Below, in pieces: positions 1,963-22,377 of a DNA stretch of 22,877 bases. This stretch comes from a virus, in the IMG/VR virus record IMGVR_UViG_3300049479_000338, positions 1-22,877 of that record; one strand, 5' to 3'. Positions within the stretch are counted from its first letter, which is position 1; every line of letters begins with the position of its first letter. Under the pieces are notes generated by a model, which saw only the letters and a list, made by a program, of their open reading frames with translations, was not told the DNA's origin and made no database searches. The position numbers and the translations under genes are program-made.

Positions 1963-1983
1963 GGTCGTGTGGTGTAGGTAGAT

Positions 1984-2047
1984 GCCACTAAGTTGTGGCA
2001 ATACTGAGTGGGGGATTCGATCCCCCGGCATCACGCCTGGTACTCAG
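1984..2047 (-). ncRNA. tRNA-like three-way-junction element 1 plus hairpin
   Basis: On the minus strand, stem I pairs 2042-2047 with 2004-2009 (6 bp). Stem III is a small hairpin (2027-2029 with 2035-2037). Stem II is a 5-bp GGGGG/CCCCC arm (2010-2014 with 2022-2026) with the 7-base loop AUCGAAU. As in a tRNA, the T-arm-like hairpin joins the 3' strand of the closing stem without a spacer, and its loop differs from the T-loop consensus at one position. The UGA stop of the 2044-2205 gene lies in stem I. AUUGCCAC and a 5-bp hairpin (1984-1999) follow. It is not a complete tRNA: there is no anticodon arm. Confidence 0.6.
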
Positions 2048-2205
2048 AAAGGATTGAAGTCAATCTCCAGGAGATCTTGTTCCCAGTCTTCAAATGTTTG
2101 AATGTAATCCTGAGCTTGCTGCTCAGTATCAAACGATTGCTCACAACCCTGGAGATAAGCCTGAGAAAATGCGTCGTGATGCTTGATGATGACGGAGTAA
2201 GTCAT
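2044..2205 (-). CDS. Hypothetical protein, 53 aa
   Basis: The start at 2205 gives MTYSVIIKHHDAFSQAYLQG, 53 aa, acidic. The frame is open further upstream, but that stretch contains the spacer element at 2224-2289. The layout is a beta-like N-terminus (YSVIIKH) and then an acidic helix (TEQQAQDYIQTFEDWEQD), similar to the 1493-1702 protein. There is no strong ribosome site; the leader is ACCACTACAACCT. Its stop codon is part of the stem of tRNA-like element 1. Function unknown. Confidence 0.6.
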   Translation of the reverse strand: MTYSVIIKHHDAFSQAYLQGCEQSFDTEQQAQDYIQTFEDWEQDLLEIDFNPF

Positions 2206-2223
2206 AGGTTGTAGTGGTTTAAT

Positions 2224-2289
2224 GCCACTGAATTGTGGCAATGCTGAAGGCAGGGTTTGCACCTGCCAATGCCGCTTAGACGGACTCAG
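2224..2289 (-). ncRNA. tRNA-like three-way-junction element 2 plus hairpin
   Basis: Minus-strand RNA: stem I pairs 2285-2289 with 2244-2248. One pair is G-U only on this strand, which argues that the minus strand is the folded RNA. Stem III is CCG/CGG (2272-2274 with 2281-2283). Stem II is a 6-bp arm (2249-2254 with 2262-2267) with loop UGCAAAC, matching a tRNA T-loop except at position 55. The stop of the 2286-2567 gene lies at stem I. AUUGCCAC and a 5-bp hairpin (2224-2239) follow, as in element 1. Confidence 0.65.
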
Positions 2290-2567
2290 TCCTCATCTTG
2301 CCAAACAAGGCGCTCTTGCTCACGCTGACGCATGAACTTGATGATGCCTTGCAATTCGGCAAGTGTTAAGTAACCGGTCGGGTCACACATGCCTGGAAGC
2401 CACGCTTCATACGTGGTCTCTGCACCTGGATCGTTGGCTGCCATCAGTCCTGAACCCTTGGGTCCAGTGACGATAGAAATCTCGCCAACGAGGCTATCGA
2501 TGTAAACCAGGTGAAAACCACCAGGTACACCAGGATGCGGTACCCAACCAGCAGTCAGGTCAATCAC
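2286..2567 (-). CDS. Hypothetical protein, 93 aa
   Basis: A GTG at 2567 with GGAG about 8 bases upstream gives a 93-aa protein starting MIDLTAGWVPHPGVPGGFHL. The frame continues upstream, but that part overlaps the structured spacer at 2615-2661 and lacks a ribosome site. The N-terminal half is beta-rich and glycine/proline-rich. The C-terminal half contains a helix ending in a charged stretch (FMRQREQERLVWQDED). No membrane segment. Its stop codon is embedded in tRNA-like element 2. Function unknown. Confidence 0.65.
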   Translation of the reverse strand: MIDLTAGWVPHPGVPGGFHLVYIDSLVGEISIVTGPKGSGLMAANDPGAETTYEAWLPGMCDPTGYLTLAELQGIIKFMRQREQERLVWQDED

Positions 2568-2614
2568 GGGTGCTCTCCGTGTGTGTGCGTGGTGCCCATC
2601 TCCACAGGGGGCAA

Positions 2615-2661
2615 TAACTGTGGGAGGGTTTGCACCTCCCAACCCGCTTTAACGGATCAGT
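2615..2661 (-). ncRNA. tRNA-like three-way-junction element 3
   Basis: Same fold as element 2. Stem I pairs 2657-2661 with 2615-2619 (AACUG/CAGUU). Stem III is CCG/CGG (2643-2645 with 2652-2654). Stem II is a 7-bp arm (2620-2626 with 2634-2640) with the identical loop UGCAAAC. Stem II differs in sequence from element 2 at several paired positions while pairing is kept, which is covariation-like support. The stop of the 2657-2818 gene lies in stem I. AUUGCC follows stem I here too. Confidence 0.65.
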
Positions 2662-2818
2662 TGTTCTCCAGCATCTCGTCCACGTAGGACTTGATGACCT
2701 GGAGGTGCTGCGCTCCAAGAGTCTGGCTATGACCATGCTCAAGGAGATCAAGGATCTCAAGCATGATCTTGTCGCCAACCTCTTCGCGAGAGAGCAGCTT
2801 GGTGGGGTTGATGGTCAC
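2657..2818 (-). CDS. Hypothetical protein, 53 aa
   Basis: A GTG start at 2818, with GGAG about 9 bases upstream and the AACACC context, gives 53 aa starting MTINPTKLLSREEVGDKIML. It is acidic and helical, with leucine repeats (IMLEILDLLEHGH) and a C-terminal helix (LQVIKSYVDEMLENN). A small dimerising protein is plausible but not shown. It is the first gene downstream of the operator-like palindromes at 3003-3036 in the minus direction, so transcription of this block may start just before it. Its stop lies in tRNA-like element 3. Confidence 0.6.
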   Translation of the reverse strand: MTINPTKLLSREEVGDKIMLEILDLLEHGHSQTLGAQHLQVIKSYVDEMLENN

Positions 2819-20973: not shown

Positions 20974-21225
20974 CATAGCATGCCTCAACTGAACGCTCAA
21001 CGTTGTCACCCCACCGAGCAATCGATGGGTGCAAACCGGATGAATTCAGGGAAGCCCTAACGTAAAGACGAGGGTAATCCTGAGCCAAGCCAATCAAGTC
21101 GTGATTGGAAGGTGCAGAGACTACTGGGTGTAACACGATCTTGTTACGTAATACCAGATTTAGCGTCCGGCATCCCACAGGGATGAAGAGATAGTCCACC
21201 CCTCTAAGAAACTAGAGACCAGGAG

Positions 21226-22377
21226 AACGACTTTCCAAAGATTCTGGGTGCGGAACTTTACCGTCCTCACCCTGCTTACATTGCCGAAATGGCAGTGGAG
21301 CCCGTGGTGGTCCATGACTTCACCCGTCAGCCCGGTCAAACCGTTCAGTTAGACCGTTATAAGTTCTGGGGTACCCCTGGTACGAAGGACAGCCGTGAGC
21401 GTATTGCCGACCAAACTATCGGTACCGCTAACAGCCGTAACATCACCAAGGAGAAAGTCCTGGTGGTGCTTAAGGAATACACTGGTCCTGCCGACCCGGG
21501 CGATCCGACCCAACCCAGCACCTTCAAAATTGCTCGGGAAACCCTGATTACCGCCCAGCGTCTTCTGCTGGACACCGGTAACCTCAACATGTTCCACCAG
21601 TCGATCGGCAGCCTGACTCTGCTTGACGACTATCGCCGTTGGCGTGACCGCGTTTTCATTGACGAACTTGCCAAAGCAGAAGCTAACGGTGTTGCTTCTA
21701 CTACCCAAGGTGGTTACTACTTCGCTGGTGGTAAGACCAAAGATTCTCAGGGTCGTGTGTCCTACACCTCCACTGAGTATGGTAACGAGGTGCAGCAGTT
21801 CCAGGTGCGTACCGACCTTCTGACCGTTGTTAAGGACCTGCGTAAGCGCAATACTCCTACCTTCGCTGATGGTCTGTATCGCTGCATCTGCGATCCTACC
21901 TTCATGATGCACCTGCGTCGTGATCCTGACTTCCGTGAGATCGCACGTTATAGCGGCAATCCTGGTCAAGGCATGTACATGGGTAACCCCATGATGCCTA
22001 ACAACGCCAGCTTCTACATGGGTCCCCAAGCTGGTCAGGGCTACTTCCTGGCTGGTGAACCCGTCATGCCGACTGGTGTGCAGTTTGAAGGCGTCAAGTT
22101 CTTCGAGTCGACCAACTTCCCGACCAAGAGCGTGTCCGCTTCCTTCGACAACGGCTCTAGCTATGCCTCCAAAGAAGTGGCCCAAGGTTACTTCTTCGGT
22201 CCCCAGTCTGTTGGTGTTGGTATCGGCGGTCCTAACGCTCAGGTGCTCATCAACAACAACGATGACTTCAGCCGTTTCATCATCCTGATCTGGCAACTGT
22301 ACGCTGGCTTCGAGATCCTGAACAAGGACTTCGTGACCACTGCTTACAGCTTCGTCCAAGACGACGGCACTGTTTGA
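21226..22377 (+). CDS. Major capsid protein, exon 2
   Basis: The head shell protein, about 387 aa when joined to exon 1. Open frame continues upstream of the ATG at 21289 and reads NDFPKILGAELYRPHPAYIA before MAVEPVVVHDFTRQPGQTVQ, so 21289 is not the true start. Position after portal and scaffold-like genes, size, the Thr/Gln-rich N-arm and a C-terminal beta-rich region with aromatics all suit a HK97-fold capsid protein. From memory it resembles N4 gp56-type capsid proteins, which could not be checked. Codons are C-ending and GC-richer than in neighbouring genes (CGT, CTG, AAC, TTC), typical of a highly expressed gene. The opposite strand is open for 336 codons only because of this codon bias. 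Confidence 0.85.
   Translation, partial: NDFPKILGAELYRPHPAYIAEMAVEPVVVHDFTRQPGQTVQLDRYKFWGTPGTKDSRERIADQTIGTANSRNITKEKVLVVLKEYTGPADPGDPTQPSTFKIARETLITAQRLLLDTGNLNMFHQSIGSLTLLDDYRRWRDRVFIDELAKAEANGVASTTQGGYYFAGGKTKDSQGRVSYTSTEYGNEVQQFQVRTDLLTVVKDLRKRNTPTFADGLYRCICDPTFMMHLRRDPDFREIARYSGNPGQGMYMGNPMMPNNASFYMGPQAGQGYFLAGEPVMPTGVQFEGVKFFESTNFPTKSVSASFDNGSSYASKEVAQGYFFGPQSVGVGIGGPNAQVLINNNDDFSRFIILIWQLYAGFEILNKDFVTTAYSFVQDDGTV

Follow-up and report, generated by a model that had tools for sequence, protein, structure and literature searches.

Processing signals that mimic tRNA are known from organelles, from mammalian long non-coding RNAs and from RNA viruses. In mitochondria, tRNAs and, in plants, the tRNA-like folds called t-elements mark the sites at which polycistronic RNA is cut. 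Phage T7 carries RNase III sites between its genes, at which a host endonuclease cuts the polycistron and leaves structured ends behind. The tRNA-like structures of plant viruses and the tRNA-like domain of tmRNA mimic the acceptor stem and T-arm while the other arms are reduced or missing. These last mimics are found at genome 3' ends or in a stand-alone RNA, and usually involve CCA and aminoacylation (reviewed in PMC5723415). MALAT1 and MEN-beta terminate in mascRNA and menRNA, which are anticodon-less tRNA mimics at the 3' end of a longer RNA and are read by tRNA-processing enzymes; they are mammalian, nuclear, present once per transcript and processed by RNase P (PMC11693755). Structured cyanophage RNAs have also been described, namely manA, wcaG and PhotoRC-II (PMC2864571), in a paper whose text contains neither "tRNA-like" nor "T-loop". 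The open-licence papers searched describe no tRNA-mimicking signals that recur between the genes of DNA phages, nor was any tRNA-like processing element of such a kind found there for phages, which is weak evidence of absence.

The DNA analyzed here (the window) is a virus record of 22,877 bases. Among isolated phages its nearest relative is Synechococcus phage S-EIV1, with a terminase that is 84% identical. The left 4 kb of the window contain a row of small genes on the minus strand, and three consecutive gene ends within it form tRNA-like folds, designated E1 to E3. Like mascRNA and menRNA, these are anticodon-less; however, they are repeated between genes and hold a stop codon in the closing stem. 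While mitochondrial punctuation relies mostly on true tRNAs, the elements described here are short mimics that belong to a DNA phage, and each is followed by a dedicated 5' hairpin. The long double-stranded hairpins of the T7 RNase III sites contrast with the 12-bp acceptor/T-arm stack with a T-loop and, unlike the plant virus and tmRNA mimics, the phage elements are intergenic and encode no CCA.

E1 (2002–2048, minus strand) was identified from its sequence, from the descriptor introduced below and from its relatives. Its closing stem pairs UCUGAGU (2048–2042) with ACUCAGU (2009–2003), leaving the outer U-U open, and is followed by a small GGC/GCC arm within 2041–2027 and a 5-bp T-stem (GGGGG, 2026–2022, with CCCCC, 2014–2010) that carries the T-loop AUCGAAU (2021–2015). 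A discriminator-like A is found at 2002. E2 (2242–2290, minus strand) was identified with model R1 and the descriptor. Its closing stem is formed by ACUGAG (2290–2285) and UUCAGC (2248–2243) with the outer A-C open, its small arm is CCG/CGG, and its 6-bp T-stem (GGCAGG, 2267–2262, with CCUGCC, 2254–2249) presents the T-loop UGCAAAC (2261–2255), with the discriminator-like A at 2242. E3 (2615–2662, minus strand), identified in the same manner as E2, has a closing stem of AACUG (2662–2658) and CAGUU (2620–2616), a CCG/CGG small arm, a 7-bp T-stem (UGGGAGG, 2641–2635, with CCUCCCA, 2627–2621), the T-loop UGCAAAC (2634–2628) and a discriminator-like A at 2615. Model R1, of which the sequences of E2 and E3 are themselves a part, scores E2 at 58.7 bits (E 1e-15) and E3 at 82.7 bits (E 6.5e-23).

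The small genes connect these elements on the minus strand. The gene ending in E3 spans 2657–2818, with a putative GTG start at 2818 and its UGA at 2659–2657. The next (2286–2567) probably starts at a GTG at 2567 behind a GGAG and ends with a UGA at 2288–2286 in E2, and a third (2044–2205, putative ATG at 2205) ends with a UGA at 2046–2044 in E1. Downstream of E1 lies a gene at 1777–1962 that starts with an ATG at 1962. The first-pass annotation had attributed a common architecture to these three successive spacers, and every feature it described is present on the minus strand: a closing stem that holds the UGA of the upstream gene in whole or in part, a small arm of either composition, and a second arm of 5, 6 or 7 bp with a 7-base T-loop-like loop that abuts the closing stem without a gap and is followed by A-UUGCC. 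What it missed is that the closing stem and T-arm together occupy 12 positions in each of E1, E2 and E3, divided as 7+5, 6+6 and 5+7, respectively. Folding of the single minus-strand sequences provided weak evidence (z of -4.0, -1.6 and -0.7 for E1, E2 and E3), with the minimum-energy fold of E2 being a different structure. Single-sequence folding is not decisive; the comparative evidence is.

A pattern of the E2/E3 type was found in at least 119 stretches of the viral collection. The family is distributed among viruses related to S-EIV1 plus a few less related contigs, and S-EIV1 itself has two homologues in the same kind of position, which lie on the minus strand of KJ410740 at 43443–43509 and 43737–43803. 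The covariance model matched 41 of 43 other virus records; these records had been picked for pattern hits, and the two that lacked a model match came via the E1 pattern. A record usually contains one to seven elements in one cluster on one strand. One genome each from 84,980 species of bacteria and archaea was searched, which gave 27 scattered chance hits with T-stems of 0–4 bp, three of which had weak model scores of 15–20 bits. In comparison with this maximum of 4 bp, a T-arm of 7 bp forms in 182 of 198 viral copies. One 16-kb contig carries an element and no protein resembling those of S-EIV1 or the window, so it is probable that the element has reached more than a single lineage. In some records (G030, G023 and G024, which underlie loci L048, L084 and L105), four to seven elements follow one another at intervals of about 250–600 nt, with an element behind nearly every small gene of the row.

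Strong covariation accompanies this recurrence. Across 121 aligned copies, 98.0% of the predicted pair cells do pair. Double-sided changes were counted in 334 cells as compared to 94 in shuffles and are present at 11 of the 16 pairs, and the covariation score is 0.519 versus at most 0.114 for slid structures. The outer pairs of the closing stem differ between copies (AU, GU, GC, CG, UA), with the outermost pair open in 24 of the 121, and the 3' flank is conserved while the 5' flank is not. In alignment A1, the CTGA, CCGYNNAAGCGG and TGCAAAC columns are invariant since the search pattern required them; as a result, no evidence was drawn from these columns being conserved, and the stems (except CTG) and the 3' flank are the parts free of the pattern. 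On the coding strand, G-U pairs are common (74 in sum) while A-C and C-A are rare (8), which indicates that selection acts on the coding-strand RNA. The stems vary while pairing is kept, as had been seen in the three copies. Covariation and recurrence in relatives, whose absence made up half of what would have spoken against the earlier reading, are both present and clearly favor it. That reading is supported in part overall, and its suggestion that the fold mimics a tRNA T-arm on an acceptor stem is strongly supported.

This geometry was explored with a sequence-blind descriptor that specified a 12-bp composite helix, a 7-nt loop, one base and TTRCC without requiring a T-loop class. Further types were recovered with very different sequences and the same loops. 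A later version, in which the T-loop class was required and the helix total was not, added types such as GCCUG-auggugua-GGAGGGG-uucgauu-CCCCUCC-CAGGU and UCUGAU-agcuggugcgca-GCCGGG-uucaauu-CCCGGC-AUCAGA. With a following hairpin included, there were 253 hits in viral DNA and 13 when the same DNA was reversed, a control that gauges the effect of the pairing demanded by the descriptors behind the helix counts from 243 and 253 copies. Among 243 copies, the closing stem and T-arm total 12 bp in 143, 11 in 55 and 13 in 33, a total of 11 corresponding to an open end pair; the division between the stems, closing stem first, shifts from 5+7 to 6+6 to 7+5 while the total is kept. When the helix criterion was dropped, the distance from the T-loop to the TTRCC behind it was 13 nt in 213 cases and 14 nt in 40, with 0–3 cases at any other distance. 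Of the 243 copies, 215 have A as the discriminator-like base and 238 close the T-loop with a G-C pair, like G53-C61 of tRNA. At the base past the discriminator (253 copies), U predominates (226) over A (22), C (3) and G (2). The elements combine the features of a tRNA acceptor/T-arm mimic, namely a 12-bp coaxial stack and a 7-nt T-loop with C56, R57 and A58, with two that are expected of an RNase Z substrate, namely an unpaired discriminator and a trailer that does not start with C. In most copies, position 55 of the T-loop is G and not U. In 14 of 16 distinct sequences with a U55-type T-loop, the small-arm region contains a GG; this association was set aside since other types also have a GG, mostly in stems. 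The stop codon is usually within the closing stem, and 157 of 235 stops begin 1–3 nt inside the helix. This position is the stronger point; a count of antisense stop codons (115 of 243) admits too much to be a sharp control. In six loci (L032, L069, L083, L091, L106, L146), hairpins with CUCAACA, CUCAAUA or CUCAAUG loops have a TTRCC 12–14 nt later and a different preceding arm, and are perhaps a further variant of the element or chance.

Known classes of element were considered in turn. A tRNA gene is ruled out by the lack of an anticodon arm and of an ARAGORN call: the program found no tRNA in the window and none at the elements of ten loci, where its one ordinary tRNA-Leu (in L112) lies away from the elements. 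No Rfam family matches the elements, those of manA, wcaG and PhotoRC-II included, and lax thresholds gave chance hits or none. No terminator-like site was called at the elements, which are followed by UUGCC and not the U run of an intrinsic terminator. An integron attC site was likewise rejected since the constant RYYYAAC...GTTRRRY core is absent and the outer stem pairs vary. The element would work like mascRNA or tRNA punctuation, and is neither a tRNA nor a member of any family described in the searchable literature.

A second structure adjoins nearly every element: 235 of the 243 copies have a hairpin, its stem 5 bp or longer, that starts 1–2 nt from the predicted new 5' end. Leaders of the first class form a simple hairpin, either GCCAC...GUGGC or a variant of it. 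In the window, a conserved UUGCC and the hairpin UGCCAC/GUGGCA follow E1 at 1983–2001 (minus strand), with the hairpin starting at the second base past the predicted cut, and the same arrangement is read from the sequence after E2 at 2223–2241 (minus strand). Some contigs that have few S-EIV1-like proteins, or none, lack UUGCC; there another hairpin, UGACACC...GUGUCA or UGGCC...GGCCA, follows N-U, which implies that the arrangement is conserved and not the letters. In the second class of leader, with 122 distinct sequences, a UGCCY/RGGCA stem overlaps with a GCGG/CCGC stem. The latter is paired in 122 of 122 with eight sequence types, and the former in all but two. The leader after E3 (2589–2614, minus strand) is of this class, with UGCCC (2613–2609) and GGGCA (2597–2593) overlapped by GUGG (2605–2602) and CCAC (2592–2589). 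As an H-type pseudoknot, loop 3 would be 0 nt, which is disallowed in the standard fold; since there is no spare base between the 3' strands, alternative hairpins are more probable. In second-class leaders (L123, L125–L127, L131–L141 and others), the overlapping stems, 25–30 nt past the elements, look mutually exclusive, and the leader may possibly be a switch. At 2565–2582 of the window (minus strand) and at many other loci, the downstream start codon and its Shine-Dalgarno sequence are often inside a small hairpin, such as CACGGAG...CCGUG or CAUGGAG...CCAUG, whose 5' strand apparently covaries with the start being ATG or GTG.

Taken with the structure, covariation, position at gene ends and adjoining hairpin, the geometry makes it reasonably probable that the elements act as anticodon-less tRNA mimics with which small phage genes end, and that the host RNase Z cuts after their discriminator-like base to provide gene-by-gene punctuation. 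RNase Z cuts just 3' of the discriminator, where cytidines suppress cutting, and the B. subtilis enzyme contacts the acceptor stem and T-arm only (PMC7479834). Cyanobacteria possess RNase Z (PMC10989914). The closing stem would represent the acceptor stem and the second arm the T-arm, stacked into a 12-bp helix capped by the T-loop that the host enzyme would bind. With the cut placed directly 3' of the discriminator-like base, the upstream mRNA would retain its stop codon and its tRNA-like 3' fold should resist 3' exonucleases, while the downstream mRNA would start with U or UU and then a hairpin, which should protect it at the 5' end. If the genes are indeed co-transcribed, their polycistronic transcript would thereby be divided gene by gene. 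Punctuation fits a 3' RNase Z cut well, given the constant 12 bp, the discriminator-like base, the U that follows and the hairpin at the predicted 5' end, and protection of the 3' end is compatible with it as a consequence of cleavage. Since the closing stem must be opened by a ribosome reaching the stop codon, folding and cutting would have to follow or compete with translation, which counts against this reading. Two further points do so as well. One, which calls for caution, is that two archaeal RNase Zs needed a mature 5' end (PMC7479834), and a long mRNA leader does not offer one; the other is the G at T-loop position 55 in most copies. More tentatively, the elements may be modular anticodon-less mimics at which host RNase Z cuts the small-gene operon of the phage into single-gene mRNAs with tRNA-like 3' ends, perhaps CCA-tailed by a host enzyme, so that shuffled cassettes become independent messages.

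The same acceptor/T-arm stack is what RNase P reads. Acting alone or ahead of RNase Z, it might cut on the 5' side of the 12-bp helix and release the element as a small RNA, in the way mascRNA is freed from MALAT1, and some RNase Zs do act after 5' maturation (PMC7479834). We regard this as unlikely, and as less likely than a cut by RNase Z, because a cut by RNase P would detach the stop codon: where the stop begins 1–3 nt inside the helix, the message would be left without one. The 5' flank is also unconserved and the outermost pair is open in about a fifth of the aligned copies. A further thought is that the elements are uncut and act as stable 3' end blocks that halt 3' exonucleases arriving from downstream. 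The folds are stable, G+C-rich and at gene ends, and unrelated hairpins are present at other gene ends of the same cluster; however, a block needs no T-loop, 12-bp total or discriminator-like base, nor a second hairpin exactly 1–2 nt beyond, and this explanation appears improbable.

A comparably low probability is given to a translational switch or coupling device in which the element and leader tie translation termination in one gene to initiation in the gene that follows. The stop codon within the closing stem, the two overlapping conserved stems of the second-class leader and the several starts in a hairpin with a Shine-Dalgarno sequence would suit such a device, which leaves the tRNA-like geometry unexplained; first-class leaders, in addition, are plain hairpins without overlapping stems. 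Recombination joints that shuffle cassettes at the DNA level, as do integron attC sites or the stem-loops of T4-like early genes, are very improbable. They would explain the many downstream families to which a single upstream gene family is linked, but the tolerance of G-U and avoidance of A-C on the coding strand only, the T-loop and the constant 12 bp point to selection on RNA, and no constant attC-like core is present at the stem ends. Shuffling may instead be a by-product of shared sequence.

The joins made via the elements comprise 162 ordered pairs of gene families, the largest upstream family having 13 downstream families in 25 joins. These families were obtained by coverage-filtered clustering, without which they collapsed into one giant cluster. 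Within a single family, the T-arm sequences differ. The cluster acts like an array of exchangeable cassettes, which a self-contained processing signal at each gene end would suit, and the shared element sequence itself may promote exchange.

With cleavage by RNase Z as the favored reading, many S-EIV1-related cyanophages probably use the tRNA-processing machinery of the host to split multi-gene messages into single-gene messages. If the cut is real, a phage organizes its transcripts with an essential tRNA enzyme co-opted from its host, and hundreds of natural variants would provide a ready-made substrate library of what the enzyme requires: 12 bp freely split over two stems, a T-loop, a discriminator and no C next to it. 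The element would also be a compact tool for producing single-gene mRNAs in cyanobacteria. The idea can be tested directly in the isolated phage S-EIV1 with the two copies that it carries.

Other features were observed in the window and its relatives. A near-identical long bipartite hairpin, closed by CUGCA...UGCAG with an inner GAUACGAAUUCGUAUC, is present at two gene ends (945–995 and 1432–1488), with further bipartite hairpins at about 601–651 and 1739–1780. A group I intron (Rfam RF00028, 90.3 bits) is located at 20976–21218 on the plus strand. The GGUGCAAACC sequence also occurs at 21028 inside this intron, where the model scores only 6.8 bits, and a link to the elements was dismissed as coincidence. 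The intron lies directly upstream of an ORF (21289–22377) whose match to a major head protein family begins at profile position 59, and may for that reason interrupt the capsid gene; its first exon was not identified. The S-EIV1 terminase (L002 from 23346 onward; KJ410740, 54080–56620) is annotated as about 340 residues longer than that of the window. The match between them falls into two parts, suggesting that an intein or similar insertion is present.
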